Below, piece after piece: positions 13,201 to 60,846 of a stretch of 64,000 nucleotides of DNA. Every line of letters starts with the position of its first letter. Position 1 is the stretch's first letter. The stretch is from assembly GCF_024713975.1 (NCBI RefSeq), contig NC_091099.1, positions 11,947,501 through 12,011,500 on the forward strand. The letters are read 5' to 3'. The DNA is from Paralichthys olivaceus. Lineage: Eukaryota > Chordata > Actinopteri > Pleuronectiformes > Paralichthyidae. The notes beneath the pieces were generated by a model that was not told where the DNA came from, ran no database searches, and saw only the letters and a list, made by a program, of their open reading frames with translations. A program made the position numbers and the translations under genes.

Positions 13201-16200
13201 GGATCAGACATGGACCAAACTAAAAAGTCAAAGTACAGGTTTAAAAGATTTTCCCAAAGATGGTTTCTATCATTTTAGGACTTCCCTGGTAATTTTGGTT
13301 TCAATCAGTTCATGCAATAAAAACAGGGTGAAACATCATGATTGACAGTTGAGACCGACTCGAGATTGGTCGTGTGGGTGTGTGGACGTGACCCTGATGC
13401 TGCAGCTCCACTCCACGATCAGTACCACGCAGACCCTGACCCAAAACGATGTCAAAACCGCAAAATTGCAGCTCCCTTATCCAGAATATTTGAGCTTAAT
13501 TTTTGCACTACGAGAGAAAGACGAAACACGTTGTCCATCTTAATACACGGTCTACGTTTGACAGCCACAACTCAATACCGGTTCTGGAGGAGATGCCCTT
13601 CTTCACCGTATCCAGCTTTAGATCAAAGCATATAATTGATCCAAAGACCATGAGGGACCAAACTGCCAGTTCCACCAGATAAAACAGCCACGACCACAGT
13701 CTGGACTCTGATCAGAGCAGAGAGAGGGGGAAAAAGAAAGGGTGATTCTCTGGTATATATTTAAGTCCATATTAATGCTCTGTATGTGTGGGTTCATATG
13801 AATTAGTAGTTAAAAACTTTCTGATCACAATTTGTTAACTTTGTAGGCGCTGGTGGGGGTTAAATATAATAACATGGATATTATATTATTAAAGTGATCC
13901 TTAACATCTGGCAAACAAGTGATAGCAAGATTGATTTTCTTCCAAATTTGAATGTTTACATAAATATACATATGTTTAATCATACCGCTGTTGTTGGTCT
14001 TGTCTACCCTGCCTAACCAGAAATGTACATGCTGATCATCCAGCAGTGACAGGGAGAGAGCCAATGTCAGCAGGTTGAAATAGTTGTAATTTCCAGACAA
14101 GATAATGAGAACCTGCAGCAGCACCTACACAAGGGAGACAGTTAATTGCAGACTGTTAAGAGACAGTGTGGAGAATTTCTAGAAGTATTCAGAACCACTG
14201 TACAACCATTAAGTTGATCAAATCAAGAAGTAAACTTAAAGGTGATTACTACTTTTCACAAAAATTAATCATTCAGCAAATTAAAGAGGGAAAATTAAAT
14301 CATAAAACTTTTAGTAGCATTTGAACCATCATTCTACCCACCTGCAAGTAAAAAGAGCCAAGTCTCAGCCGACGTATAGGACTGAAGAACAAAAAAGGTG
14401 CGGCGATCTCGATGACAAAGGTTCCCACCACGCTGAGCTTCTGCCACCACATGGGCAAATGGTGGGCGAACCAGGCCAGAGGTGTCGGAATACACTGAGT
14501 CTCATAGTGATACGTCAAAGCTGTTCATCACAAGGAAAAACCAACAATGGAAATTCATTAATTGACAGAAAGAAATAAAAGGCTGAAAAGAATTAATATC
14601 AGTTACAGTGACAATGAGATGATGTAAGAGGAGTTTAACTGCAGGTTTTAACTGCAGTCCTGGGATTTCTTTCCAGTATAATTTACATCTATGTGTATCA
14701 AAAACGTGCCTGGAACCAGTTTGCCCTTTTACAATTCACATTTATGACACAAATTGAACTCAGAGACGCTTGCACTAGCCTGTCAGGCCCCACCACGTGG
14801 GACAGCGTGATGTCAGCTTCACCACACCAGAAGCAAACATGAGCCGGAAGAGAAGCCAGCGGATCAACCAGAAGGTCACACGATCGTGCTCCCTTACCCC
14901 GCGTGACCCTCTGATTATTGTCAGTGGAGCAACGAGGATACAGAGGAAACCGGTCTCTAGGAGCAGGTTGTCCCTGTTGAAAGAGCAGAGGGAAACAAAT
15001 GTGTGTCAGTGGTATTTCAAACAGTCTTGGGCTCTTTCTTCCAACTACTATTCATAGAAGTAATGCGTATATACACATATGTGCTATAGACATCAAGCAA
15101 TTTTTTTTTAATCATAATGTCCATAACACTCACCACTGGAAGTAGAGGAACACCTGGCCCACCTGAAACAAACATATATGTTTGATGAGGAATAGCATGC
15201 CACCTGAAAACATTGACGAGGAAAGAAAAACAGAGTACAGCTGATATAACTTCACCTGGTACATGGACAGGTACAAGGCCCAGAGGCAGAAAAACACCAC
15301 GCTGTCTCGCAGAGCCTCCACCAGCGTGGCGGCGAGGCTCAGCGCGGCCCCAATGAGACACAGCAGCTCCATGGCAGTGTGCGTGTCCAGGCCGAGCCAA
15401 GGTCCGAGCCACAGGAGGGTGGGAGAGGACACCAGCTGTTCCTTGAGGGACTTACCGCTGTATGGCAGCTGCCAACGAGCCGGCAACAGCCCATCGTTAC
15501 CATAGAGACCTGGAAATAAACACGTAAACCACGTTAAAGAGCGTCATAGAGTTAAAAAGGTGTCCTGTCATTAATGTCACAAACAACAGCCTTAGTTGTA
15601 CACTCTTTCTATATAAGATGTTTGCGTTTGACTGTTGTCCTTCAACACTCTGAGATCCCTGTGACTCTCTGTGTTGATCCTTTCTGCAGGAAGCTCCTAA
15701 TAAAATACACAAAGACTAATTTGGCCTGTTGTATTTTCAGATTTCAATCAATTTACAACAATCAATCAATTCAAAATGATCAATTTACAACAATAAAAGA
15801 CAAATACGAGCAGAAACTTGTCATTCAAGAGGCTGCTGGGATTATTTGGAAAGTAGTTTTCAATTATTTTCCTTATTGATGAATGGACTAATCTTTTCAC
15901 CCCTGCATTGGAAGGCACAGCATGTATGTATTCAAATCTTCCTGTGCTAGTTTCTGTATTCTATAGAATATAAACAATGAAAACCACATCATGTCATTTA
16001 ACTCAAAATCCATTCAATGGGAGCTGCAGACATTAAAGAAAACTATTATAATTATTATTACAGGTGTATCCAAGGCAGCTGTAAAGATTTGGTTAACGGG
16101 GATACAAATAAAATAAAAAAAACTGGACTCAGAATAATACATGTAATCTAAACAAAGTTTTTTTCTGTAGCACTACTAGCACATGGTTGTGGGCGTCTAG

Positions 16201-16519: not shown

Positions 16520-16717
16520 GCCTGGGCCGAGTTGCTAACCGGAACAGCGACTGGGTTCCACGCTGATCCAGCGCGTTTTAACGTAGCCTTCGGCGGGCGG
16601 ACACGTAGCGATGAACGGACGGTGTGATGAAGTTCATCCGTATGGGCTCAAGATGTCGCTGTCGTTAATTATATATATATATATATATTATGGCATGCCG
16701 TTCAGGAAATTAAACCT
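16520..16717. promoter_or_regulatory. lmf2 5' flank
   Basis: This is the immediate upstream sequence of lmf2. It is moderately GC-rich with several CpGs between 16520 and 16625, then an (AT)n run at 16671-16689. No TATA box is obvious. The next feature upstream is a minisatellite. Confidence 0.4.
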
Positions 16718-17024
16718 TTGAATATATGGAATGAAACCTTGAATATATTGAATGAAGTCTGAATATATGGAATGAAACCTTGAATATATTGAATGAAGTC
16801 TGAATATATGGAATGAAACCTTGAATATATTGAATGAAGTCTGAATATATGGAATGAAATCTTGAATATATGGATTGAAGTCTGAATATATGGAATGAAG
16901 TCTGAATATATGGAATGAAACCTTGAATATATTGAATGAAGTCTGAATATATTGAATGAAGTCTGAATATATTGAATGAAGTCTGAATATATTGAATGAA
17001 ATCTTGAATATATGGATTGAAACT
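16718..17024. repeat. Minisatellite, ~20-21 bp unit, ~15 copies
   Basis: Two alternating unit types are seen, TGAATATATGGAATGAAACC and TGAATATATTGAATGAAGTC. It sits about 200 bases upstream of the lmf2 start. The same core (ATTCCATATATTCAA on the other strand) reappears in the loop of the palindrome at 17581-17841. Confidence 0.9.
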
Positions 17025-17580
17025 TGACTGACGTCAGACTTCACCGCAGTGCCTGCAGCCATCTTGTGTAATGTGTGGATGCTATAGCTAAAAGTGAGTG
17101 ACAATGAGTTAGTCCGCTCACAATCTCGTTGCAGCAATATTCAACTATGAGGACATCAGTAACACACTGGCGAATGCGTGTACGGCCCAAAATCCCCCGG
17201 ATAGCCCCGCCCAATACTGTTCAACTGACAAGGAAGTTCGCTCCGTTTTGAATCGTGGCAGACCTACTACAACATGCAGCTGTTTATCAGGCCAACCTCA
17301 GCATGTCTTCAACCTCACAGGAGAGCCCCACAACACCCAGTGTACAATCTCCACCCATACACAATAAAGGGCCCAAGACACTGTATGGTCAGCTTGATAT
17401 AGTTTCCAGGTGATTTAATGAAGGTAAAACACAGTGAAGGGCCGTGCGTAATGGCACTGCGCTCTGATGCGGCACTTCTCCAGCACTGGCGAAGCTGCTG
17501 CGGCTACAGGGATTTCGTGAACTGAAAGAGAAGCTCTTCATAATTTGTTTAGATACAATAAGAATCACCCACATTCATAG
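17025..17580. other. Non-coding gap, nothing recognised
   Basis: Mixed-composition sequence with a few CpGs (17170-17290) and no open frame longer than about 60 codons that looks coding. I cannot assign it. Confidence 0.4.
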
Positions 17581-17841
17581 ACCAATGCAGGCTGAATATT
17601 TAGTTTAGTATTGAATGTATTTGATGATCCGCGACAAAGCTTTGGGCACACAGCGGTCTTTGGACAGACAGACAAATGTATATATTCAAAGTTTAATTCC
17701 ATATATTCAACGTTTTGGCATAATATCATTATGCATTTGTCTGTCTGTCCAAAGACCGCTGTGTGAGTAACGTGCCCAAAGCTGTGTCGCGGATCATCAA
17801 ATACGTTCAATACTAAACGAAATATTCAGCCTGCATTGGGT
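17581..17841. repeat. Large imperfect palindrome (fold-back element), arms ~100 bp
   Basis: The left arm 17581-17678 and right arm 17734-17841 are reverse complements over nearly their whole length (outer end CCAATGCAGGCTGAATATT, inner end GACAGACAGACAAATG). The right arm carries about 9 extra bases. The loop is ~55 bases and contains minisatellite-like CCATATATTCAA. The right arm stops exactly where the inverted duplication begins. It may be a MITE or fold-back element. Confidence 0.9.
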
Positions 17842-19208
17842 AAAACTGGATATTAAGTAAAGTTTACTTCCACGCCTCTCTGTCTGCCTCCCAGGTCGCA
17901 GTGACAGCAGTTGCCATGACGTTCGACAGGGACCAGGCGGTAGAGAAGCCAGCAGACAAGCCTTTTACCAAAGGTCTGTCTGGTTAAAGGTTGCTTTTGG
18001 AGGAGTTGCTGATTTATCTATTTTGACTCAGTTTTAAAATGCATTACTGTTGCTACATTTATTTGCTGACACAAAAATGTTATAAAATGAAAACGTATTG
18101 ATGTGGATGCAGCTTAAGAAACCTGGCTGATTGTGTTTGTACCCTTTCAGGATGCAGTGAGACTGAAGAGCAGCTGCAGTTTCAAATGGAGTTGTGCGCA
18201 GACTCATCAGCCATCAACACTCAGCCCTCATCTAAAATCTCAGGTAGCCTTTAACCATTCTCTTTTTTATTTACTCCCTGACCTCCTCCGCTGCCTGTGC
18301 CCAGCTTCACTAACAGGCATTGCCCATCTCCTCCACTAACACTTCAGGTACAGTCTCTTTACTCACCCCAGTTGCAAAACTCTGCCAAAATCAGCTGGTT
18401 GTGGTTCGTTCAGCAGGTAAATGAACTGCGATGTGACCCTGTGTGTCCTGTTTTGCTTTGAATTTAGATGATTAGTGTGATGTGGTGTAGATGAGTTGCC
18501 GTGCTCCTAAACATTCAGTTGAACTAAGTAAGACAAGAACAGAATATACAATTCTGATGAGTCCTGCACCGGGTCGGGTACGGGTAAAAATTAACTGAAG
18601 GCGGGAAGCTGCTGGGAACTTTTCTTTTGTTTTGGAGAAATCAGAAAAGAAATAATAAATTGGCTCATTGAAGCTGAGTCAGCCGCTGGGATTTGTTTTA
18701 TTGTTAAAACCTATGACACCTCCTTTGACCTCTCACTTAACTTTACAAATGACTGTCGCTTCCAACACCGAAAACAAACTTGAACATCAAAATGAATGGC
18801 ATTAAGACATAATTAGCCAGTTGTGAATTCTTTCTCAGTAGCTTTCCTGCTTGTAAAAAGTCCCACATTAGCCACAAGCTAGGCACATTGTCATGGAAAA
18901 AACACATTGACAGGTGTTGCGACAAGTCACACATAATTTTCCAAGAACACAGCTCACCCACCATAATGAGAGGACAAGGAGATCAGTTGATGCAAGTGAC
19001 TGTGTATGTAGCACATGTGTTTAATCACAGGTGACAGGTCAGGTTGCAGGTCATGTGTTAACAGGTCTGGGCGGGTTTGCTTTTGGCCTAAAGATAATAA
19101 TAATTGCAGGTAATGGGCAAGTCCAGTCCGTATCTTTGTGCATATTGATTTTTCAAAAGGGACCTGTGCAGGACTCTACTGTAGATGTACAGAACATGTG
19201 GATTCTGG

Positions 19209-19277
<69 letters not shown>

Positions 19278-19517
19278 AGGTGTCCCAGAGAGCACCAACG
19301 TCTCACCTCGAGGTAAGCCCACTTCTTGACCACAATCTCCCTCTACCCCACCTCCCCTGCTACCAAAACAACTACACTTCCCTTTTTTTTGGTCTCGGAC
19401 AAAGTTATCCTGCACCACTTCCAAACCTCATCCACTTTTGTTTTTTTTTTCTCTTCTTCTGTTTGTTTTCCGTGTCTTTTTTTTCTTCTGTCTTGTTATT
19501 ATTGTTGTTGTTGTTGT

Positions 19518-19575
<58 letters not shown>

Positions 19576-19839
19576 CTCTCCAGCTGCCTCCGTTGATTAC
19601 GGTTCCTTTGCAGACAGATGCAGCACCTGGCTAGAGCTGCTTAGGCTGAGTAAGTAAGTAGGAGGACACAGTCTCTAGCACACTCTGGTGATCATACCCA
19701 CAAATACACAGTTTCACAAGCAATCCCACACCTGCACATACACTAACTCGCACACAAGCACGCAGACACTCAAACATGTGCATGTCGCTGGGGGGCGGAG
19801 CATCGTAAATCAAGCTCCAGCTAGAGTGTGAAAGTTGAA
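17842..19839 (+). pseudogene. Inverted partial copy of c2cd5 (exons 21-24)
   Basis: Near-identical to the reverse complement of 41711-43880. It carries copies of c2cd5 exon 21 (17895-17973), exon 22 (18151-18243), the 33-nt exon 23 (19280-19312) and a truncated exon 24 (from 19584). The first three exons keep their length and splice sites. Exon 21 has at least one changed residue (V for L before EKPADKPF). In exon 24 the 3' part, including the donor, is gone: GCTTAGGCTG runs straight into AGTAAGTAAGTAGG. The copy also lacks about 80 bases present in the source near 42430-42512, and its GT tracts differ in length (19211-19276 and 19525-19574). It has no start, no 5' exons and no promoter, so it is not expected to make protein. 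Confidence 0.93.
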
Positions 19840-21595
19840 AAATGTTTTGTGAGGAAACAGTCACCTTGACCTTTGATCAGGAAAATGTAATCAGCTCATC
19901 TTTGAGACCAAGTAAACAAATGCTTACAGACTAACGAACGTATGTACAAATGGACAACCTAAAAACTTGGCTGTCACCAGTGTGGAGGCATAAAAACTCA
20001 TGTTGAAATTATGCCAATTATGGTTTTATGGCTCAGGTGATGCGCTGGTGCAGATTCAAATACACTTACCCATTATCTTTTTTGTTGAGTTTGTCCATGA
20101 AAGCCTTGACCACTGGAAGAACATCACTGGAGTTGATCAGCAGACTGCCAGAAAATTTGCATTTCAGTTCCTGTTCATCTGAAGTGTGTGCCCGAAAGTC
20201 CAGGTGGTTGATCTGGAAGGTCTGCCTCCAGTTCATCTCAGGGTCAAAGTAGACATTATCCTTTACCTGCAGAAGCTTCCGTGCTCTTTTTACAATCCTC
20301 AACCCCTTGGCCACAGCTTGGGTCTTCTCTGACGACACAAGCTCGTCTGGTTTCACTGACTCAGTCTGAGGATGAGGCTTTGTGTCCTCTTCCTGCAGTG
20401 GTAACGAGTGGAGTATCTGCCTGAACTTCTCAGCATAACTCTCATAATCTGTTTCATAGTCCCGAAAAAGGGTGTCTGGCGTGATTTCCTTTTCCCTCTC
20501 AATTATGGCTGATTTCTCCCCCATGAGGCTTTGATCTAGTATTCATCAGAGGCAAAAACAGAAAATCAGAGTGAATTGGGCTGACAACACAAGTAACTCT
20601 TTTATAAATAAGAAAAGTGAGAAAATACCTTTGTCTGTGTTTTCTTGTTTCTGCAGGTCAGGACTGTCTAGTTTCATGTATCCAGCTAAACCGGAACTGA
20701 AGATAATTAGAACACAAAATGATCGTTACTGATTCTGGCTCCAAATTGCAAGATGGCCGAGTTCGTATCCAGGATATTTTGCCTTCATTTCTGGACTGTA
20801 GGAGGAAGTGGAGACGCATCGTCTATCTTTATATACAGTACAGTCTGTGGTCTTACTACATATTTGAATAACCTAAATAATATTCAAATAATTTTGAAAT
20901 GGTAACAACAGTAAGGGAAACACTACTTTTTTTTAAAGATAGTGTCAGTAAACAAAAAGACATTTGATAAATCGGAAGGTGTGCAATGCAGACGAATGAG
21001 AAATCATACTTTTTGTTGGTAGATATTTTGCTTCTTATTGTGGTTGATATAGAGTGGATTTGAAATGTACTTTTGCACTTCTGCTAAGTTTAAGGACAAC
21101 TGTGTGTAAGCTAACAAGACCACTGTGTGTGAGCTGTATTCACCAAAATGAAATTAGACTTGGTTTTGTTTCATTTTAACCATATGTGTGTGCGCATACT
21201 GAGACTGTGTATAATTCACGCTAATAATTGTTCGTCATGTTTATGATAATGATGTGGGTTATAAAGTGACAAATAATTACATTTAAGTTGAATATGCTTT
21301 CATGCAGCCCTCTATTAAGAGTTTGTCATTTTGTTAAGATAAATAGTTATATCATAGTGATAGGGATTTCATGTTTGTGTAAATAGTAATTCATGTTAAG
21401 CGAAGGTTTATAACGGATGATCTAAAAGTTGAATATTATCATACCTTTAAAGGGTAATACTGTTCACACCATGTTTGCAGTTGTCAATAAGGTTTTGTGA
21501 GTCATCAGTAAAACAGAGTCAGACCATCAGTTAGCCGAGGATGCTACAACATATGGATCTATAATTTAATTTTCATGTTTGTCCCCAGAGGTCTC
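19838..21595 (-). pseudogene. Inverted partial copy of b4galnt3 (exons 13-14 and flanking introns)
   Basis: Near-identical to the reverse complement of 31537-33266. Copies of exon 13 (20629-20696) and the large exon 14 (20070-20535) keep their splice sites and reading frame. The 152-codon stretch of exon 14 differs from the source at a single residue (VYFDP here, VYSDP in the gene). The intron upstream shows a small block substitution near 20905-20925. The right edge stops 3 bases short of b4galnt3 exon 12. No start, catalytic domain or promoter is included. Confidence 0.93.
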
Positions 21596-22017
21596 TGTAA
21601 TGGAAATGTTACATTTGTGTATGTATAATTGCATGAGCAGACATGTATGTGGAGGACTGACCAAATGGTTGACTAAATTGTTAATCTAAAAGGGCAACTT
21701 TAAGGTTTACGGTGGTGGCTTAAGAGACTTGAGTTTTCTGGCCTCGAGAAACCACAACTTTATGGTATCTTTTGGTATCTCTGTGTCACGGTTATGTATT
21801 CGGTGTCCCTCTCCTGTGTTCCCCTCCTTGTCCCTCGCTATGTTTCACCCTGTGCCCCTTCTGTGTTCATCCCTGTCTGGGTTATTGTATTTTGTTCTTG
21901 TTAATAAGTTCGTTCAGTGTTTCCTGTTTTATTTTGTAATCCTTGCTCCCTGTGTGTTTTCATCTATTGACTTCCTGCCCTCATCAGTTTCACCTGTTTG
22001 TCTTGTGCCACCTGTCC

Positions 22018-22452
22018 CCAGTTACTAATTAGTTCCAGTCGGTATATAAGTCTTTGTGTTTCCCCCATGTGGTTGTTGGTTCGTACTGCCAGGGTTCGTG
22101 TGGAGGGTGACGTGAGAAGGGGAGGACCAACACGCAGAAACTAAATATGATTTAACAAAAAGTGTGTTTTATTTAAAAGGGGTAAACTTAACAAAAGAAA
22201 TCTCCAAGAAACAAAAGTCGCACTCAAAAAGATGAGTGGAACACAGAACAGGGCAGGATACAAACTTACGGGGTAACGTGACGAGAGCTGACGGGACACA
22301 TGAACAGACAGAACCAGAATTGAGCTGACGGACAGGACTGACCCGAAATGACGATGACACATGAACAGACAGAACCATGACGACGACGAACCAACAACCA
22401 CATGGGGGAAACACAAAGACTTATATACCGACTGGAACTAATTAGTAACTGG
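22018..22452. repeat. Inverted-repeat element, arms ~67 bp
   Basis: The left arm 22018-22084 (CCCAGTTACTAATTAGTTCC...) is repeated in reverse complement at 22386-22452 (...GGAACTAATTAGTAACTGGG). The spacer of about 300 bases contains a short direct repeat, ACATGAACAGACAGAACCA. It is probably the end of a fold-back or composite transposon. Confidence 0.85.
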
Positions 22453-23069
22453 GCATTGCGGGAGGAGCCCCCAGCTGGCAATGCACCCATAATAAACATT
22501 GACTTTAACAAAAATATTTTATCATATCTTTAGTCAAAATTCGACTTTTACATACTAGCAAATTCAACTTTTATTTCAGTTCTAAAACAAGGAAATAATT
22601 GTATTAATGTCAATTAAATATCATTTTTGCTTGCTTTACCAATCAGAGTAGTTTTTTTTAAATATGTCCAAAGTATCATTTTTTTCAGTGTTTTTATAAT
22701 TGTATCTAAATTGTACAGTTTGCTATCATGCGGCGTATGTAACGTAAGCAAAGTGATGAATGACGTTCTGTGTGCAGGTCTCTTCATTCTCTTACTTTAT
22801 GAACATCATATCAAGTATATAAAAGCGGTATAGGCTATGTTTTTCCATCAAGATCCTAATTGAATCACTTGGAAATCATTGGGAATATAAAAACCCCTCG
22901 CAATGTTAAAGAAAGGGTTAAAAAAAATCTACGGGATAGTTTTTTTTAAATTTTTGTTTTATTGAACAAAAGATGAATCCACATCTCCACTGTGGAGAGA
23001 GACTGATGTGACGTGTCTTACTTCAAAACGTTATTTGTATCGTGTAAAACACAAGTGCGTCGTTTCATC

Positions 23070-23924: not shown

Positions 23925-25125
23925 ACATACATTAACCCCTATGTATGTAGCCGAGAGTTCACCTGTACTGAAAAGTATAATAATGACAGGAAGAATGTGG
24001 CTTGAACCAGGACACGTTTAGTTTTTTAAAACTGGATAAAGTTGATGATAATAATATAAATTTTCACAAGCTATATTATTAGCTATATATTGCTTGTTGT
24101 GAGTCTTTTTTCTTCTATAGTATCGATTATCATGGCAACCGTGAAGCCGTGATATTTCCTCAGACAATCGTGGCACCAAAATTTCATATCGTGACATCCC
24201 TAGCTGTCTGTCTTTTTCCTTCTATAGTACCAATAATATATCGTAGAATATTGTGAAACTGTGTTATTTCCTCTGACAATAATTGTGGCACACCAAAATT
24301 TCATATCGTGACATCCATACTCATGACACAGCCAATATTCTCACAATCACAAGAAATGAGAATCGGATGGCTGGATCATAAAATAATAACATCTTTATAC
24401 ATAAGCCTTGGTAACACACCGACTTGGCATTAGGTTTCATCTATTCATTTCTAAGACCCAGTTTCTTGTGGCTCACACCCACACTGAGCCCTCTTAGGTT
24501 TCTTCTCACAGTGTTCAATATCATTTGATGTTGTGGTTTCTCTCGCGTCTGCTAAATGCCTTAAATGTTAATGTAAATGTCTCTAATGTTTTTTTTACAA
24601 GTTCTAAAATCTATCGCCATCTTCTGTCGCATGTTAAACATCATCAACACATCCGCTTGCTCGCTATCAATTGTCATTGCCAATTAAAAAATAGGTATAT
24701 CAGCCGTTCCATTTTTTACCCTCTAATATCAGTAGCGATTTTCCTAGATTTTCTTATGCCACTAAGCAGAAGAAAAAGATGATGCCAGACCAATAGAATT
24801 GTGGAATGAACATTTTTGAGTGTTGCCGATCTGTTGCATATTTGCCTGTCACCCCTGCATTGCTCTGATTGTGTTCCCTCACTTCCTCAGGCCTGAAAGC
24901 TTACAGTGTCAAAGACTTCTGGAGGAAAGCCATGTCTGACAACTTGGTAAAGATAAAGAAGCAGTAATAGAAAATATGGTGATGTAAAGCTGTGTGTTTG
25001 TGCAGAGCGGCTGAGGAAAAGTGAAATAAATGTGGGTGTTTTGCAGGTCAGAGAGGAACGACCAAGCAATGTGGAGGATTCATCTGCTTGGACAACCAGC
25101 TATATTCTAAAACCCTGGAAACCAG

Positions 25126-25224
<99 letters not shown>

Positions 25225-28200
25225 TAGTGTGTCCAACGCTCTTAATACTCACCTCTTCTGAACTCAGACTAACCTGTTTGGGCCTGCCCCTCCCACCTCA
25301 GCGCACTTGAAAATAACCAATGCTTCTTATTTTCTTATAATCATCTTGTTGTGATGACCATTCAATGTGCTTCACAGAACAGTTTTGCCATTTACCCATT
25401 TATACAAACATTCATTCATTCACTCACATTGCCTGCACAGCCACCTAAGGCAATCTGTGTTGTGCAGTATCTTGCCCTTGACAATTTGTCATGTGGAACA
25501 GTGGAGGCTGGTATCAAACCACTGACCCTCTGGTTAGTGGACGACCTGTTCTACCCAGGGGTGGATTTCAGGGGGGTACAGGGGGGGACCGGACCCCCTC
25601 CCAGAGTGTTGTCCTCCTCAATATCATTGCAAACATAAGCAATGATACATTTAAATATTAATACAATATGCACTGTATGTGTGTTTGTTAATTACAGACT
25701 AAATTAAATCATTAATAAACTTTAACCAATTGCTCCCCCCTCTCCTTGCCTCACAGTGGTTTGGTCCACTGTTCACAGCTCAGTGAATTTTCAACCGATT
25801 TTCAAAGGATGTGTATATGACACAGAATGCTTGGTTTCATTAAAATGAATGGCTACTTGATCTGTTGTAGATGATAATGTAGTAATATTTCTATAATGTT
25901 TAAGATTAACTCAGCCAAAAACAATTAGGTTCTACCGCGTGTATTTTCTGTATCATTTTGGAAATAAATAGTCTTAGTCTTAATTCATTGAAAAAAAGAC
26001 TAAATTACAAGAAACGCTGTTATATGCTCAGTGTCTGGAAGGCTTCATAGTGTTGTGGACTTTTACACAGTAGCAGGAAAACTAAGTCTAGTTAGGAATA
26101 TTATTTGTATTAGATCAGTTAATGGGTGTTGCTTCTCTACCACTCGTGTTAATAACCTGGGGAAAAAAAATATCCATATCTTTTTTCAATGCACCAAAAC
26201 AACAAGAATGTCTAAGCACCCCAGTGATATCAAAGGCAAGTTGATATAAGAAAAGTGCCTTCATGAATGTGTCATCAGGCAAAGTCAACTCAAAGAGAGG
26301 AGCTGAGCAAAGACAGACGGGGACAGTCAGACAGAGGCATAGACTCTCAGGTAAGTTTGGTAGTTTTTGTCTCCAAGTTATGATGTAAAGGCCCTCTCAT
26401 ATTTAGACTTGTAAAAAGTAAAGTTATTAGTCTTGTCACGTTGAACCGTAGTTATGAGAATGGAAAACATGTTATTTCTCTTCTAGGAGACAGACTGTTC
26501 AGGGTCATTGAAAGTGGTATACGGGTCAGATCCAGGTCGGGCTAAGCACTTCTTCAGGACCTCATAGCATGTAGGGCCAGAGGCAAAGATCACAAGAACC
26601 CTTTTTCTTTATATACATATAAACATATATATATAGTACGTTTGGTGGTCCCCTTTAGTGTATCCTCCAGGAATTACTCAGGACTAATGTAACAGGAAAA
26701 GGCACACACACACACACATTTCATTTAGATCCTCTCTCTCCTCTCTTTCTGCAGAATAAGGGACGAGTCAATCTGCACGTGTTTGAGGACTGGTGTGGCA
26801 AATCTATAGCTGACCTCCTCAAGAACCCGCACTACCCGTTGTATCCTCACGTGAGTCAGAGTCTGACCTGAGCACCTCACACTGCATTAATTATGTTCAG
26901 TGGATCGTTACCTCAGCCAGGGTGGGTGTGTTTGTGCCCCTGTCCATTGCATTGTTTGTTCTTCAGCAGGAATACGCAAAAACTACTGAACAGATTTCCA
27001 CTAAACTTGGTGGAGGGATGGGAAATGGGCCAAGAAAGAGCGAACTCCCAGGGAATCATTCATTGATCTTAATGAAAAGAACCAGCTCTATTATCTTTTA
27101 TCTAGGACTGTGATCACGAGTGTCTGCAGTTTGGTGCAACTTTATAGATTTTAAGCCTTGGTGGAGGTATATGCACTCAAATACTCAGTAAACTCTCAGA
27201 TGGAACCCCATGAAATTTCATGGAGACATTCATGATCCCCAGAGGATTAATCCTACTGACCGAAGTGATCCTCTTTTCTTCTTCAGTGTCACAGTGAGGT
27301 GTTTTCACACAGAGTTGCATTCTACATCCACATGTTAGATCCTCAGGTCCCTGGACTCAAGATGTTGTCCCTCTTTGAGTAAACATGGTGGCTGATTCTT
27401 TGTTTCCTCTTTCAGTCCAGAACTACAGCACTGAAGCTGGCTGTCTCTCCTAATTGGACCAACTATGGACTCAGGATATTTGGCTATCTGCATCCATACA
27501 CTGACGGTACCTTACTAGTCACTTCTGTTACCATGCTTACATGTCCAGAATGCAGCAGCTCGACTGGTCTTCAACCTACCTAAGTTCACCCACACTACTC
27601 CACTCCTCCGCTACCTTCACTGGTTACCAGTGGCTTCCCACATCCGTTTCCAAACGCTAGTATTTGTGTACCATGCTGTGAACAGATCAGGTCTAGTCTA
27701 TATCCAGTTAAACCTTACACCCCAGCCCGTCCATTCCGCTCTGCATCTGCCAATAGACTTGCTGCTCCCTCATTGTGAGGGAGCCACTAAATAAAATCAT
27801 GACTGTTTGCTATCCTGGCTCCCAAATGGTGGAACGAGCTCCCAATTGACACCAGGACAGCAGAAAGTCTACATATCTTCCACTGCAGACTAAAGACACA
27901 TCTCTTCTGACTACACCTTGGTTAGGAAGATGATGTCTAATAAACCACATCAACTCTGGTGTTTATAGAATAAAAAAAATACATTCAGTTTAGTTGCACT
28001 CACATGTATCACTTGTACTTTGTCAAACTTTGTAGTTTGAAGCAAACTGTACTTACTTGATTCTTGTTGTGTCTGGGTTTGTACCCTCATGGTTGAATGC
28101 ACTTGTTGTTAGTAGCTTTGGAGAAAAGCATCAGCTAAAGGAAAAGTAATGTAATAGATATCATACATCTCTCTAGATACTGTACCCATGTCTGTCTGAA

Positions 28201-28952
28201 TCCTTATAACCCCACTTTCCTTTGTCTCTCAGGAGAGTTTGTTTTTGCTTTGAGCTCTCAGGACAACTCTGAGTTGTGGCTCAGCACAGATGACTCCCCC
28301 CTCAATGTGCAGTTACTGGGATGGGTTGGAAAGGTATTTATCTCAGTCATCTTCTTAAGCAGCAGAGGAACATTTCCACATTTGTGTCACTGACTACATG
28401 GACATCAATATTCTGACTATTGATCTTATTCTGAATAAGAATTGATTTTTGATTGTTCACATGAGTTGCTAATAGTATTCATCATTGATTCCTCTTTATA
28501 TGTAACAGAGCATCTGATAATGATTCATATCAATGTTACATCATACTCCTAGTTTACACTCGAACCCAGGGTGTTCGTCATCAAGCAGTGGGTAACTACT
28601 TTATGTTGATGTTGAAAAATGCTGGAAAAACTCCAATAGGATAAAGTAACATGAACATACACATGTCTACATAATGTGACTGAGGTCTGAATACTCTTAA
28701 TTTGTTTTGTGCTTATTCCAAGTTTGACCTTTAAGATTTAAGATGATCCGAAACGGCGGTTTACATGGCAGTGTCTTACTTAGCTTATTATCTTAATGGG
28801 GTTAATGTCCAAATATTGGTGTCTTAATATTTGCTTTCCTTTATAATTATTTACCTCCTTTTATTAGACTGGCACAGAGTGGACCGCCCCTGGCGAGTTT
28901 GAGAAATACGCTAGTCAGATATCCAGACCAGTTAGGTGAGTTTACTCTCTCG

Positions 28953-29015
<63 letters not shown>

Positions 29016-32000
29016 CTCAACACGGGCAGAAATATCTCAATAAAAGTAGCTATGGCCTCAAAAGTCAGCTGGATTTCTAGTCACAAAAAAGGTTAAAAAG
29101 AAGCAAAAACTTGTGTGAAATAGATTTTACAAACCAGGATCACAGGAAGCACTACTCAGCCGTTCAAAACTGTCTTTGTATGAGTAAAAAAATGATATCA
29201 GGACTTGCACAGTCAGACTTGTAGGATCCATCTTGATCCGTACAGGGGTCCTTACGTGGCGCTGGATAGATTTTGGACAGAAATTTTGAAATGATATCCG
29301 GGTCGAGTCAGGGACAGAAAATTGGGGGCCACACTGCCCTCTCCCCTGTATCTATGGATAACGTCACCAAAACTCATGTCTCAACAGAAGCACATCCAGT
29401 CTCGTAACTGATAAGTTCTCATAACCTAGTTCTACGTAAAAACGCAAATGTTCCTCTGGGAATTTAACTCATAAATACTGATACGGTAAAAACTCAATGT
29501 AGGTGCTGGAAAGAATAAGACGGCTGTTTCTACCTATTACATGACCTTGTTGTTAACGCTTTGTCACAGAGTGTGGGTGTGGATTACAGGCAGTTTTATA
29601 GACTTTACAATCTAGACCAGTTTCAATTGATACCAAAACAGAAAAAAGAATCAGCAATAAAGATCCAGTACTGTACGTGCCTGGTGGCATTGTTTGTACC
29701 TTAACAAGAACCGTACTGTAAGTGTGCTTCAAGCGTGAGAATAGAAACATTTATGGCTTTAAAATTGTGTTAATGTTTATTCAACGTGTGTATTTTAAGC
29801 TGCTAAAGAAGAAGAGACATGAGAAGGAGAATTTTAAATCTCTAAGTGATTAGATTTTACTCTATGATGTTGTTACACCCTGAAACAAATGAAGGGACAG
29901 AAGTGCTGCACACTCAATATAGAGCAGCCAAGCCAGTCAGCTACCTACGCAGAACCTTTTGGCTCTGTTGTCTAATATGTCTATGGTGTGGTTCTAAATA
30001 TGAACTGTTACTGTCTGACAGGCTTTCTGCAGAGAGGAAGTACTTTTTCGAACTTCTCCACAAGCAGGACCATGAAGGGACAGACCATGTGGAGGTGGCA
30101 GTAAGTAGCTCGATCCAGCTCAGAAAAAAAGTCCCCTCTCTGTTTTCTCATTTGCAGCTTTCTCATTATTGTGTAATCTGAGCTTTTAAACAGAGAAGAG
30201 AAATGTAGTTCTTTGTGTTTGTCTTCACACAGTGGCAGCTCCAGGACGAAGGCTCCAGATTCACAGTTATTGCATCCAAGGACATCTCTCTCTATGTTGG
30301 TAAGGACACGTATCAGACATCACCACACATCATTCCTTCTGACACTGAAATGGCAGAGAAACCTCAGAGTGAATCTGCACCACAGAGTGTCTCACAATCC
30401 AAAACTACTGACTTTATTATTTCTGCACAGATGCTCACACTGTATAAAGTCAGTGGTTTTGTGGCACATTAAATGTGGAGCACTTCTCTGATTTGATTGG
30501 CCTGTGGCTTCATCCCACAGATGAGTCTGCTCTGGTAGCAGGTGATGTTGCTCACGTACCTCAGACAGCTGCGAGCCACCAAAACACGAGACAGAGCAGC
30601 TCCACAGTCGACATGTTGATGGAAGACCCACGAGATGTTCTCTACAAAGGTGAGAGACGTCTCTCTGTCTTGTTCTGTATCACATCTTTCACAAATATCA
30701 CACGTTTCATGTCAGGCTGCAAGTGATTTCCAACTGAACCACAAAGTAGTCTTGGCTCCAATCTCTGTTGTGTTGGTTTGCAGTGCCTTTGATAAACAGT
30801 AAGTTCCTACAAGATGTTTTGCCCGTCTGCGACTACAAACCCAGCTACACAATCAAAGGTGTTCCTCTTGGTCGCTATCAAGGACTGAATTATGTACGTA
30901 TTTGTATGTGTTTGTATTTCTGATAGATGACATCCCGCTCATACTGTTCTTCAGAATACAGTTTTGAAAGTGGAGAACCATGTTCTCGACAAATGGAACA
31001 GGCTAGCACTTATTTTGCTTCCACACTGGTGACAGCCAGTGGCCGGAGGCATCAGGTCTCATTCTTGTGAACATGTAAAAGAATGTGAGGGAATTTCTTG
31101 AAATATGGTGTAAGATTCACAATTAGATTTGGTGGTCAAAGGTCAGGGTTGCTGTGACCTCATAAAATACATTGGTGGCCTTGTGAATGCGTCATATCAG
31201 AAACACCTCCAGGGAATCCTTTTAAATTTCGTACAAACGTTCACTTGGACTTTAAAGTTAACTGATCAGATTTAAGTGAGTTTGGAAAGTTTTTAAATCT
31301 AAACACATGTTGCATTCTGTGATCTGGTCCTGGAGGGAGTGGCTGCATCAAACAGGACCTCATGATTCATATTTGTGTGGCAGCAAATCATTAAGCTCTC
31401 ATGTCTCTAACAGCATGTCATTTCATTTCATCTCACCAGGTCAAATTGTCCTACATCTACCCCAATGACCACACCCGACTCACACACATGGAGTCTGAGA
31501 AAAGCTGCTTCTACCCCCCAGACATCATGGAGAAGTGAGACTTCTGGGGACAAACATGAAAATTAAATTATAGAGCCATATGTTGTAGCATCCTCGGCTA
31601 ACTGATGGTCTGACTCTGTTTTACTGATGACTCACAAAACCTTATTGACAACTGCAAACATGGTGTGAACAGTATTACCCTTTAAAGGTATGATAATATT
31701 CAACTTTTAGATCATCCGTCATAAACCTTCACTTAACATGAATTACTATTTACACAAACATGAAATCCCTATCACTATGATATAACTATTTATCTTAACA
31801 AAATGACAAACTCTTAATAGAGGGCTGCATGAAAGCATATTCAACTTAAATGTAATTATTTGTCACTTTATAACCCACATCATTATCATAAACATGACGA
31901 ACAATTATTAGCATGAATTATACACAGTCTCAGTATGCGCACACACATATGGTTAAAATGAAACAAAACCAAGTCTAATTTCATTTTGGTGAATACAGCT

Positions 32001-35000
32001 CACACACAGTGGTCTTGTTAGCTTACACACAGTTGTCCTTAAACTTAGCAGAAGTGCAAAAGTACATTTCAAATCCACTCTATATCAACCACAATAAGAA
32101 GCAAAATATCTACCAACAAAAAGTATGATTTCTCATTCGTCTGCATTGCACACCCTCCGATTTATCAAATGTCTTTTTGTTTACTGACACTATCTTTAAA
32201 AAAAAGTAGTACCATTGATACCATTTCAAAATTATTTGAATATTGTTTAGGTCATTCAAATATGTAGTAAGACCACAGATTGTACTGTATATAAAGATAG
32301 ACGATGCGTCTCCACTTCCTCCTACAGTCCAGAAATGAAGGCAAAATATCCTGGATACGAACTCGGCCATCTTGCAATTTGGAGCCAGAATCAGTAACGA
32401 TCATTTTGTGTTCTAATTATCTTCAGTTCCGGTTTAGCTGGATACATGAAACGAGACAGTCCTGACCTGCAGAAACAAGAAAACACAGACAAAGGTATTT
32501 TCTCACTTTTCTTATTTATAAAAGAGTTACTTGTGTTGTCAGCCCAATTCACTCTGATTTTCTGTTTTTGCCTCTGATGAATACTAGATCAAAGCCTCAT
32601 GGGGGAGAAATCAGCCATAATTGAGAGGGAAAAGGAAATCACGCCGGACACCCTTTTTCGGGACTATGAAACAGATTATGAGAGTTATGCTGAGAAGTTC
32701 AGGCAGATACTCCACTCGTTACCACTGCAGGAAGAGGACACAAAGCCTCATCCTCAGACTGAGTCAGTGAAACCAGACGAGCTTGTGTCGTCAGAGAAGA
32801 CCCAAGCTGTGGCCAAGGGGTTGAGGATTGTAAAAAGAGCACGGAAGCTTCTGCAGGTAAAGGATAATGTCTACTCTGACCCTGAGATGAACTGGAGGCA
32901 GACCTTCCAGATCAACCACCTGGACTTTCGGGCACACACTTCAGATGAACAGGAACTGAAATGCAAATTTTCTGGCAGTCTGCTGATCAACTCCAGTGAT
33001 GTTCTTCCAGTGGTCAAGGCTTTCATGGACAAACTCAACAAAAAAGATAATGGGTAAGTGTATTTGAATCTGCGCCAGCGCATCACCTGAGCCATAAAAC
33101 CAAAATTGGTGACAGCCAGTGGCCAAAGGCATTAAGTTTTTAGGTTTTCCATTTGTACATATGTTTGTTAGTCTGTAAGCATTTGTTCACTTAATCACTC
33201 AAATGTGAGCTGATTACATTTTCCTGGTCAAAGGTCAAGGTGACTGCGTCCTCACAAAACATTTTTGGCTTCTTGAACGTGGAGTCTGAAGTCTGCCTAA
33301 AGGGAAATTCTTATTATCTCATTTTTCTTATTAAAGCAATATGTCAAGAGTAACTGGAGGAACTGAAACTGCATAAAACCACTGGGTGGTAATGTATTTA
33401 TATTAAGAGATCTAAAATAGGTACAGAGTGGGACCTCACAATTATTTTAGATGAAATAAGAGTATGTTGCATCTTAGAATCAAACAATTTTGTGCATGGA
33501 CTTCCTAACTGTTATTGCAGACATGTCACTGTGTCTGACTCTCTCTGCCCCTGCAGACAGTTCACATTAGTGCGAGTGGTTAACGTGGTGAAGCGTGTGG
33601 ACATCGTCAAAGGAAGCCGTTACCTCCTGGAGCTGCTACTGAAAGACATTAACGGCCGGCTGCTGCGTCTGTCACAATATGTCTACGCTTTGATTCCACA
33701 ACCTGAGCTGGTGCTGTGTAACCCAGTGGGCTTCAGCTGGAATCCTCTTGCCACCGTCCACATCATAGTGCCAGGTACTGTACATCCACCTTTGACCAGG
33801 CTCATCTCTAGTGGTGGAGATTGAACATTGACTCAAGTGCCTTACATCAATACAATTTTGAGGCACAGTAATTGAATTTTTCATTTTCCTTCCACTTTAT
33901 ACTTCAACTCATCTACACTACAGAGGGAAAGGTTTCACTTTACACTCCTTTATACTTGACTTAGTTATGAGTTACTTTTAAGATGATTTAACACAAGATT
34001 TTGTAGTTTTTAACTTGTATTTAGAAAAGTGTTTGCACACTGATATTATGCCCCTAAAAGTGATTTGACTACATCAAGTATGTGATTCTACATGTTGTCT
34101 TGTCATTCTTAATATTTCTTCAAGCAAATATCAACGTCAAAACTTAAAACCTCAGACTGTGTATAAAGAAAATCTCCACTTCCTCCCACCGTCGAGAAAT
34201 GTGTAACGGTGTATTGGGGGATATGTGTACATTTCTGAAATTGCTATTTGTTGTCATAGTCCGTTGTGTTGAGATATGATGGGTGGGGTTATCGATGCGG
34301 CCACATGTGCCCTCTAACAAAAACTAAAGTGAGCTGACAGCCTTGATGTTTAAAGTCGTGTGTCTATCTTCCTGTTTACGTCTCTCAGTGAAAAACCAGG
34401 CTCGGTGGGTTTACCAGCTGATTTTGGAAATGGAGAAAGTGTTCAAAGAAACTGGAGACACCAACTTCAACCTCATCATCACTGACTACGAAAGCACTGA
34501 CATGGACGTGGAGAAGGCTCTAAAGAGCTCGTCACTCCACAGGTTGTGCATTTGTGTGTTTGACCTTTTACGCTGAATATAAACCTATGGTTAAGTATGA
34601 TACACATGATGTATGTGCTGTAACAGTGTGTGTGGAATGTATCAGGTACCAGTATCTGAAGCTGAGTGGAAACTTCCAGCGCTCTGCTGGTCTGCAAGCA
34701 GGAGTCGACCTCATAGAAGTTAGTGATGCAACCGCTCTCAGCAGTAAAATAATTAAGATCAATTCATTTCAATAGAATAATAAGAACATCTTTACCTCTC
34801 TGTCATCCTCCCTCAGGACAAACACAGCATAGTGTTTCTGTGTGACCTCCACCTCCAATTCCCTACCTCTATGATCGACAGCATCAGGAAACACTGTGTG
34901 GAGGGATACATGGCCTATGCTCCCATGGTCATGAGACTGGACTGTGGGGCTACACCACCTGAGGCCAGAGGTAGATACACACATCTTTAGCTTCATTTTA

Positions 35001-36862
35001 AAGGGATAGTTTACTTTAAAATCAAAATGCACTCATTATCTACTCACCACTATGCCAATGGAAGGGTGGGTGAAAGATTTGAGTCCACAAAACACTTTAA
35101 GGGTTTCAGGGACACCCTGTTGCAGCACAATCCAGTACAACTGAAGTCATAGTGACCACTTTTTCAAATGTAAAAACACAACAGGTAACAATAACATGTC
35201 TCCATACTGTGTCCGCAAGCAAAAATAATAATTTACGGCCTATTTTTAAGCCTAAATGTCCAGAGGATCATTCACGATCCACTGGACGCTAGCTTAACCA
35301 CTTCCGGTGGACTATTTTATGTCTGCGCGTGTTATCGTTTGAAAACCTCTCACCATCCACATAGACAGTCAGATCTCTACATGCAGTTGTGCACCTTGTA
35401 TACCTGCAAGTGTCATGCAATGCAGTTCTATCTCCCACTTCCCTTTCAGTTTTTGGTCTGTGTGAATCTTTCATGCGTTAGAGCGACCTTTGTGAACCAA
35501 AAAAAATCCTGTTTTCACCCATTTATTTAAATCCGCTCCAAAAAGCACATGAGTTCTTCCCCAGCCCATATCTCATCCTTCCAATACGTTTGGTAATACA
35601 CTGGTAGTTTTTGCTGTAATCCTGCTAAATAACAGAGAGAAAAACAACTATTATACCTATAATGTAGGTGTAGATGTTGGTAAAACTGTTTACCAACCAT
35701 GCAAACTGGTTAAATTGAAGGTAATAGGATGCAGGTTAAGTGTGGATGTAGTAAATGTAAAATTCGAAATGTAAATGTGTGGATTGCAGGTTTCTGGGAG
35801 GTGGATGGCTTTGGCCTGCTTGGAATCTATAAGTCTGATCTGGATGCAGTGGGAGGAATGAACACCAAAGAATTTACAGACCGCTGGGGAGGGGAAGACT
35901 GGGAACTACTCGACAGGTGTGTTTACTTACTAAATGTAAATTAGCAGATAGACTCTGGTTTTTATTTCTATCCCCATATCAGCCATGCTTTTCCTTCCTT
36001 CAACTTTATAAAGAAACATCAACATCTAGACTTTTCAACATTGTTGAGAAAACATCTGTAGTGATGCCCCTCACATGTAAAGTCTCACACAACCTGCATT
36101 AAACAGAAAAATACCCAATTTATTAGGTACACTTTGCTAAATCTAATGCAACAGTCCTGTAAAAAATCCTAGGTAAACTAAACTATCACAACACACAAGC
36201 TGGTCAGCACTGTTAGGCAAACAGGCACACTTAGTGACTGAACATGGTGAGGCAGTTGGCAAGTAAAGACCCATCTGGAGATGGTATGAGATCAAAACTG
36301 GAAACTTTATGCCAAATTAATATTAATGATGTTCATGTGAGACAGAGTCTGTTATTTCACTTAATATTGATATTGTGGCTCAGAAAGTTTGGTAACCACT
36401 GCCCTGAAGAGTAAAATAAAAGAAAGAAATGTAAGTGAACAAACTCCTCAGTACCGAAGAGTATTGAACATTTTTATTTCAACATGTCAAGAAGGAAGTT
36501 GAAAAGACTCAAGTCAAACTTCTAAAAATATGTCAAACCAATAATATGGGCACACATGCCTGCCTTTACAAAATACACATAGTGTGAGATTCAGTATCAG
36601 GAGATTGTGCAGAAAACTGTGTGTTGACTTTATTGACATTTCAAATTTCTTTTCATAACGCAAAAGGACAGCAATCTTCCTCCCCTCATGTTTTTTTCTT
36701 ATGGCTGAACCTAACACTATACCCACATACTGTACCTCTGTTCTCTGCTCTAGGGTCATTAAGTCAGGGATGGAAGTGGATAGGGTCTACTTGAGGAACT
36801 TCTTCCACTACTTTCACTCCAAACGTGGCATGTGGAACCAGCAGGTTACACCCAACAAGTAA
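23227..36862 (+). CDS. b4galnt3: Beta-1,4-N-acetylgalactosaminyltransferase 3-type, complete, 20 exons, 842 aa
   Basis: A Golgi type II enzyme that adds GalNAc beta-1,4 to GlcNAc to make LacdiNAc. Exons: 23227-23413, 24891-24946, 25047-25127, 26755-26850, 27416-27506, 28233-28333, 28868-28935, 30022-30100, 30233-30299, 30521-30649, 30784-30893, 31440-31534, 32427-32494, 32588-33053, 33557-33774, 34389-34542, 34646-34718, 34817-34970, 35790-35916, 36754-36862; all phases agree. Residues ~34-50 form the signal anchor after a basic cytosolic tail. A PA14 domain follows (~110-260, with [40 protein letters not shown]). The C-terminal ~220 residues are the chondroitin-GalNAc-transferase-like domain, with metal-site FLCDLH (DLH at 723-725) and [10 protein letters not shown]. 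It ends [12 protein letters not shown]. Shorter than human B4GALNT3 (~998 aa), mainly in the linker. B4GALNT4 is the alternative paralogue. Confidence 0.92.
23867..23919. repeat. (CA)n microsatellite in b4galnt3 intron 1
   Basis: Pure CA repeat, about 26 units. Confidence 0.95.
24108..24318. repeat. Local tandem duplication, ~105 bp x 2
   Basis: Both halves read TTCTTCTATAGTA ... GTGATATTTCCTC/GTGTTATTTCCTC ... AAAATTTCATATCGTGACATCC. They differ by a handful of substitutions and small indels. Confidence 0.85.
25128..25221. repeat. (GT)n microsatellite starting at the splice donor of b4galnt3 exon 3
   Basis: About 47 GT units. The intron itself begins GTGTGTGT, so every position in the tract is a potential GT. 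Confidence 0.95.
26279..26350 (+). other. b4galnt3: Candidate cassette exon of b4galnt3 (24 codons, phase 0-0)
   Basis: A 72-nt open segment follows CATCAG and precedes GTAAGT. It has no stop in the frame set by exon 3 and keeps the frame of exon 4. It would insert 24 hydrophilic residues ([15 protein letters not shown]...) just before the PA14 domain. The direct exon 3-4 join ([14 protein letters not shown]) aligns better with the human protein, so this is probably optional. Its polypyrimidine tract is weak. Confidence 0.5.
26925..27260. repeat. Interspersed repeat of the 'ACTAAACTTGGTGGAGGGATG' type
   Basis: The segment reads as the widespread fish repeat that contains CAGATTTCCACTAAACTTGG and GGGATGGGAAATGGGCC, followed by partial similarity to about 27250. 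It lies in b4galnt3 intron 4. The boundaries are uncertain. Confidence 0.5.
27545..28140 (+). mobile_element. 3' fragment of an L2-like (Maui-type) LINE in b4galnt3 intron 5
   Basis: The conserved tail wording is visible: CAGAATGCAGCAGCTCGACT, GGTCTTCAACCTACCTAAGT, CTTCACTGGTTACCAGTGGC, then text on the theme of AACGAGCTCCCAATTGACAC and AAGACACATCTCTTCTGACT. The terminal part (TTAGTAGCTTTGGAGAAAAG, CATCAGCTAAAGGAAAAGTA) resembles the typical L2 tail. There are many stops, so it is dead. Confidence 0.65.
28955..29013. repeat. (GT)n microsatellite just inside b4galnt3 intron 7
   Basis: About 29 GT units starting 19 bases after the exon 7 donor. Confidence 0.95.
31028..31265. repeat. Interspersed repeat (GGTGACAGCCAGTGGCC type)
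   Basis: Shares GGTGACAGCCAGTGGCC and the GGTCA-AGGGT-GCTGTGACCTCAT core with 33109-33280. The inverted, longer copy at about 44880-45066 ends in ACTGCATGGAGGTGTAAAAA. It is a common fish non-coding repeat. The 33266 breakpoint of the inverted duplication falls inside one of these copies. Confidence 0.55.
33109..33280. repeat. Second copy of the GGTGACAGCCAGTGGCC repeat, b4galnt3 intron 14
   Basis: Same motif order as 31028-31265 but shorter. The central part is duplicated in the inverted segment at 19838-19999. Confidence 0.55.
35003..35640. repeat. Interspersed repeat in b4galnt3 intron 18
   Basis: It starts AAAGGGATAGTTTACTTTAA and continues with CTACTCACCACTATGCCAAT, AAGATTTGAGTCCACAAAAC and TAACATGTCTCCATACTG, wording I recognise from a high-copy fish non-autonomous element. 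The ends are not well defined. Confidence 0.5.
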
Positions 36863-39800: not shown

Positions 39801-39981
39801 GACTCCTATTTTAATACAGACTGAATATCTTTGAGTGTGTGAATACTAGCTCTTTGTTACTGATGGCCAAACCTTTGGATGTTTTTACAGAGATTTAAGG
39901 CAGACATAAGTGACTCATTTGGACGGTTGTGTTCACTCAGATTGTGTGTCCTGCAGACTCAGTGAGGCCAGCGTTTCATTG
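36863..39981. other. Convergent 3' UTRs of b4galnt3 (+) and c2cd5 (-)
   Basis: AT-rich non-coding sequence. For b4galnt3, ATTAAA-type signals occur near 37400-37425 and AATAAA near 38380. For c2cd5 (minus) a dense TTTATTTTATTTATT stretch at 39407-39422 supplies AATAAA signals. A piece at about 38036-38110 (GGGGCGTTGCACCAGGGCAA) resembles 62740-62790 in reverse and is probably a shared repeat. No gene is seen. Confidence 0.55.

Positions 39982-60846
<20,865 letters not shown>

Follow-up and report, generated by a model that had tools for sequence, protein, structure and literature searches.

The window analysed here is a stretch of 64,000 nucleotides from Paralichthys olivaceus, C7:11947501-12011500 of the assembly, with positions counted from its first letter. 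Pfam matches to PF23025 (C2CD5 YbjQ-like domain) were found in two minus-strand open reading frames, 46377-46742 and 58326-58859, and matches to PF05679 (CHGN) and PF02709 in the joined exon peptides of a plus-strand gene between 34.3 and 36.9 kb, which we take to be B4GALNT3. Exons at 26.7-30.1 kb presumably encode a PA14 domain, and the minus-strand open reading frame at 15130-15543, which gave no Pfam match, is assumed to be LMF2. The c2cd5 gene sits between the two arms, A and B, of an inverted b4galnt3-like gene pair, and upstream of arm A lies a short segment composed of pieces of both genes. The features are as follows:

16667-17750, no strand: truncated mobile element, with long terminal inverted repeat and interior, colinear with other genomic copies to 17750
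17582-17839, no strand: palindrome of 258 bp, with left arm 17582-17678, loop 17679-17733 and right arm 17734-17839
17840-17841, no strand: GT, two bases belonging to neither side, at the left junction between palindrome and c2cd5 piece
17842-19839, plus strand: piece 1, c2cd5 exons reading rightward, an inverted copy of 43880-41711 with the last exon frame-broken
19838-21595, minus strand: piece 2, b4galnt3-like exons reading leftward, an inverted copy of 33266-31537 with the open stretch 20066-20542 kept
24823-37158, plus strand: arm A of the inverted gene pair, its counterpart arm B at window-scale 77068-63887, almost wholly outside the window
31537-33266, plus strand: source of piece 2, within b4galnt3-like gene A, where arm A has escaped homogenisation with arm B
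33267-41710, no strand: the 8.4 kb missing from the copy, comprising what is left of b4galnt3-like gene A together with the 3' side of c2cd5
41711-43880, minus strand: source of piece 1, the c2cd5 3' part, its gene identity given by Pfam PF23025 in nearby open reading frames

In a BLAST comparison of the window against itself, 17842-21595 resolved into two inverted pieces, c2cd5 followed by b4galnt3-like, with the 8.4 kb between their sources skipped. The first 1370 columns (17842-19211) matched 43880-42511 reversed at 99.7% with 4 mismatches, followed by two stretches rich in simple repeats and indels (19210-19574 against 42427-42053 reversed, 95.5%; 19503-19839 against 42085-41711 reversed, 88.8%), and 19838-21595 matched 33266-31537 reversed at 96.3%; with scores this high, chance is no issue. 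The self-comparison bore out to the base the original prediction that the segment is the reverse complement of 31537-43880 with 33267-41710 removed, as well as its statement that both pieces are inverted and ordered as in one inverted block. The pieces had also been described as lying back to back, which proved wrong, since they converge tail to tail. In the base-level alignment, piece 1 (17842-19837) carried 15 substitutions in 1996 aligned columns, with 4/1368 in 17842-19209, and piece 2 (19838-21595) carried 28 in 1712, with 11/139 in 19838-19989 beside the internal junction; the cores of the copy are therefore 98.9-99.7% identical to their sources over more than 1 kb each. At 21595 source and chromosome diverge, and the chromosome continues as 21596-21769, so that a high-identity reversed second copy lies within different flanking sequence, as in an inverted segmental duplication.

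A whole-genome search with the 3754-base segment (588 Mb, 25 contigs; the best 40 of 1710 candidates scored) gave 45 matches, and those listed were the segment itself, its two sources in three rows, a match of 83% to a less closely related b4galnt3 paralogue at C7:12015145, and, on other chromosomes, 40 partial matches that are taken for dispersed repeats. Dispersed repeats aside, the chimera is read as single in the genome among these best 40 of 1710 candidates, because a near-identical second copy would have ranked first. For the right flank (21596-21769), a search that skipped very common words reported no match elsewhere among the best 40 of 1820 candidates. About 190 bases to the right of the chimera, at 21783-22453, two fragments of one LTR family lie in opposite orientation, and 68 bp of them (22017-22084 and 22386-22453) match perfectly as an inverted repeat; in two other genomic copies, L068 and L069, this LTR runs without interruption.

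Arm A and arm B align in twelve blocks of alternating high and low identity, five of them at 95-99% (26724-27701, 28074-28744, 29264-30905, 33460-34999 and 36629-36912) and the other seven at 76-88%, a pattern that likely reflects a gene-conversion mosaic between the inverted copies. The source of piece 2, 31537-33266, falls in a divergent stretch. Since it does so, and since piece 2 outside its repeat head is 98.9% identical to A as against 83% to B, the piece clearly derives from A and not from B. The original prediction had missed that this source belongs to an older inverted gene pair, partly homogenised, whose arms lie on either side of c2cd5.

Both pieces retain introns, and a retrocopy was rejected on that ground. 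Each of eleven splice-site motifs checked occurred twice in the window, with one occurrence in the copy. The earlier count of five exons with intact splice sites can be stated more precisely, in that eleven motifs of six exons are kept, the damage falling on the donor side of the sixth. The last c2cd5 exon in the copy has lost 28 bases (27 + 1) and meets an early stop in a frame that is open in the source, and 85 bases are missing beside the TG tract; the base-level alignment agrees here with the predicted partial loss of a c2cd5 exon and of about 80 bp near the GT tract. In piece 2, the open stretch 20066-20542 differs from its source by 2 base changes and in 1 of 158 residues, and genome-wide the large b4galnt3 exon stretch had good matches in A, the chimera and B (72%) and a weak one at C7:4702055 (36%). 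The two pieces cannot yield a single fused protein, because their exons converge, those of c2cd5 running to the right and those of b4galnt3 to the left, and the c2cd5 piece is also frame-broken. The retained splice motifs, the large b4galnt3 stretch that is still open, and the close likeness of the cores to their sources in opposite orientation could suggest that chimera transcripts serve as antisense RNA to b4galnt3-A (rightward) or to c2cd5 (leftward). This is highly improbable, as the likeness is explained by youth alone, the c2cd5 part is decaying, and no Rfam match at the gathering threshold was found for structured RNA in 16500-46000. The pieces look functionless, no evidence of a function having been seen.

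Arm B and copies of dispersed repeats served as outgroups for assigning a direction to the changes. In piece 2, 13/28 substitutions could be polarised, with the derived base in A at 11 sites and in the copy at 2 (two-sided p = 0.022). Eight of the A-derived sites and both copy-derived ones came from the base-level alignment and three A-derived sites (19955, 21557 and 21590) from the alignment with arm B; at one of the eleven, 21401, the outgroups were divided 3 to 1. The sites left out comprised five with no outgroup or an undecided one and ten in the repeat head at 19856-19940, where five had as sole outgroup a non-orthologous repeat copy in B (3 derived in A, 2 in the copy) and the others had none. 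Where copy and source differ by a substitution, arm B shares the base of the copy at 6 sites and that of the source at 1. In the core of piece 1, the outgroup placed 2 derived sites in c2cd5 and 1 in the copy, and the fourth, a missense change at 17940, had no outgroup. Derived changes are thus found mostly in the in-place sequences (A 11 to 2, c2cd5 2 to 1); the excess in A was noticed post hoc, and we offer no explanation for it. That selection on a young double antisense locus would underlie the slower change of the b4galnt3 copy (2 derived sites against 11 in the in-place gene) is more improbable still than an antisense function as such.

Length differences could be read in the same way. 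The 37 bases at 19977, which appear as an insertion in the copy, have a homologue in arm B, so that A has lost them, and 16 bases kept in A are missing from the copy. The block change reported for a b4galnt3 intron is therefore present, though it is not simply a change of the copy, since the source lost 37 bases and the copy 16. With private losses in both, neither sequence in its present assembled form can be the descendant of the other, and this makes a simple false join less favoured. An assembly artefact, in which a chimeric or other-haplotype fragment was placed at 17.8-21.6 kb, would fit the core divergence of 0.3-1.1%, which is within the allelic range, and the presence at the edge of a 258-bp palindrome that is hard to assemble. 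It is nevertheless unlikely, as all three junctions would need to be false in a window that contains no N bases, private losses and a complex indel that breaks the frame mark the copy, and the copy agrees with arm B or other repeat copies against the source at 11/13 sites of known ancestral state. Given the private losses in copy and source, and that 11/13 polarised sites of piece 2 are derived in the in-place gene, the chimeric copy is probably real, as far as the assembled bases can tell.

The left edge of the chimera had gone unnoticed in the original prediction, where a truncated mobile element folds back on itself as a palindrome that ends 2 bases short of the c2cd5 piece. The element was compared with 14 other genomic copies (L054-L067), many of which have long terminal inverted repeats with a minisatellite, and the best interiors are colinear with the window to 17744-17750. 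In the window, a 41-bp minisatellite (unit of about 20 bp) lies at 16719-17027 in the long terminal inverted repeat; copy L054 1488-2479 corresponds to 16771-17750 at 90.6% and copy L059 2797-1761 to 16719-17744 at 90.8%. The turning point of the palindrome, 17750/17751, is where the element's own 17-bp inverted repeat ends, this short repeat of the interior reading GGACAGACAGACAAATG and CATTTGTCTGTCTGTCC in the window. It is recognisable in 7/14 copies (L054, L055, L057, L058, L059, L061 and L062) and perfect over 17 bases in four (L055, L057, L058 and L061), and its presence there indicates that the repeat at the turning point predates the event; in the remaining copies, its second half is absent, altered, reversed or outside the aligned stretch. 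The loop is reversed in L066 and, over a shorter stretch, in L067, so that unusual forms of this interior also occur elsewhere in the genome; L063-L065 have a different interior past the arm.

The second arm of the palindrome was found in none of the 14 other element copies, and both arms in the window have TT where all 11 covering copies have GC, which points to local copying. Folding of 17540-17860 with RNA parameters gave -176.9 kcal/mol. Over 97 aligned bases, the arms differ by 3 mismatches and one 9-base gap in the left arm, which weakens the case for local copying. At two mismatch sites and across the gap, the other copies agree with the right arm; at the third mismatch, 8/13 copies have the base of the right arm and 5/13 that of the left, a split that may leave room for arms of different descent. 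The left arm accordingly carries 2 derived substitutions and the 9-base loss and the right arm none, with the third site undecided. In the 164 kb read, no stretch of at least 60 bases of three element copies was found outside 16667-17839. Capture of the fragments by the transposon (Pack-type) was rejected, no second element end having been found to the right of 21595 to enclose the fragments.

At the internal junction the two sources overlap by 2 bases (AA), which is unremarkable, at least 2 shared bases being obtained in 16.8% of 20,000 joins placed at random in the window. Substitutions cluster there, the 11/139 of the repeat head standing against 17/1573 in the remaining piece 2 (p = 4e-6), and the c2cd5 side of the junction has two short complex indels. 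The differences between 19838-19989 and 33110-33266 possibly stem from error-prone synthesis at the junction or from conversion by a further copy of the repeat. Recombination between like repeats was set aside by eye, as only the 33266 side carries a repeat. Divergence is unequal in the two cores (4/1368 in piece 1 vs 17/1573 in piece 2, p = 0.014), which could mean two events.

The main rival to a single event is a two-step history, in which the whole 12.3-kb inverted block (31537-43880) was copied and 8.4 kb was later lost by end joining, the palindrome being unrelated. The order and orientation of the pieces are consistent with one block, the 2-base overlap is consistent with end joining, and the palindrome arms diverge more than the piece cores. 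We consider this history possible yet rather unlikely, because it would need a separate cause for a palindrome that is absent from 14 other copies and ends 2 bases before the insert, and for the crowding of changes around the internal junction. The earlier description as a single inverted block, internally deleted, is likewise possible and, at the same time, incomplete, as it omits the palindrome at the left junction and the arm A/arm B pair.

It is somewhat more probable than otherwise that the segment is a genuine, non-functional chimeric inverted duplication that arose from repair of a break (or stalled fork) inside the mobile element. The short inverted repeat of the element would have let the broken left end fold back, and this end would have been extended by a reversed copy of about 90 of its own bases. 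The folded end would then have joined a templated insert, c2cd5 43880-41711 plus b4galnt3-A 33266-31537 in inverted order and orientation, with 8.4 kb skipped at a 2-base overlap and templates 10-26 kb away; at 21596 the far end would finally have been joined to other sequence, the second half of the element being lost. Set against template switching of the MMBIR/FoSTeS type, in which one event makes several joins that typically have short overlaps, one join has the 2-base overlap found above to be common by chance and one has 2 extra bases. The anatomy of the sequence is directly observed, and the order of the steps, template switching by a polymerase and the view of a single event are what we infer from it. 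The palindrome may be older than the insertion, because its arms (3/97 plus the 9-base gap) diverge more than the 0.3-1.1% of the piece cores. The true young duplication claimed earlier is better supported than a false join, given the private changes on both sides, arm B, the absence of N bases and the fold-back signature, and is taken as probable.

The chimera is a known kind of rearrangement. Hairpin-mediated fold-backs are described in yeast (PMC7467729, PMC11724301), fold-backs at inverted microhomologies in human patients (PMC3907307), short fold-backs with distant inverted insertions at yeast double-strand breaks, the local fold-backs being mostly about 5-34 bp (PMC11724301), and complex duplications with inverted segments at PLP1 (PMC4352052). 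The fold-back inverted duplications of yeast and human (PMC7467729, PMC3907307) share with this locus an inverted repeat at the turning point, a single-copy loop and a reversed adjoining copy, whereas the reversed copy here extends just 89 bases past the repeat and the chromosome resumes after the insert, with no long inverted arm. The break insertions (PMC11724301) and PLP1 (PMC4352052) share the local fold-back, the nearby inverted pieces and the small overlap at joins; in contrast to the yeast insertions, the fold-back here precedes inserts of 2.0 and 1.8 kb and lies in a germline assembly. Searches of the literature found nothing on this locus for c2cd5 and b4galnt3 in fish, as judged by titles and the opening of abstracts, nothing related on b4galnt3 duplication in teleosts, and nothing on template switching combined with inverted duplication and complex rearrangement in teleosts.

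For annotation, the c2cd5 and b4galnt3 exons at 17.8-21.6 kb should be taken as fragments and not as genes, and the inverted arm A/arm B pair is a possible substrate for inversion of c2cd5. Events of this kind have mostly been described in tumours, patients and yeast, and the present locus provides a germline example, in which the repeat at the turning point, the reversed arm and the two inserts survive together in one stretch, and in which the genome also contains relatives of the mobile element and a paralogous arm of the gene pair that allow the changes to be polarised.
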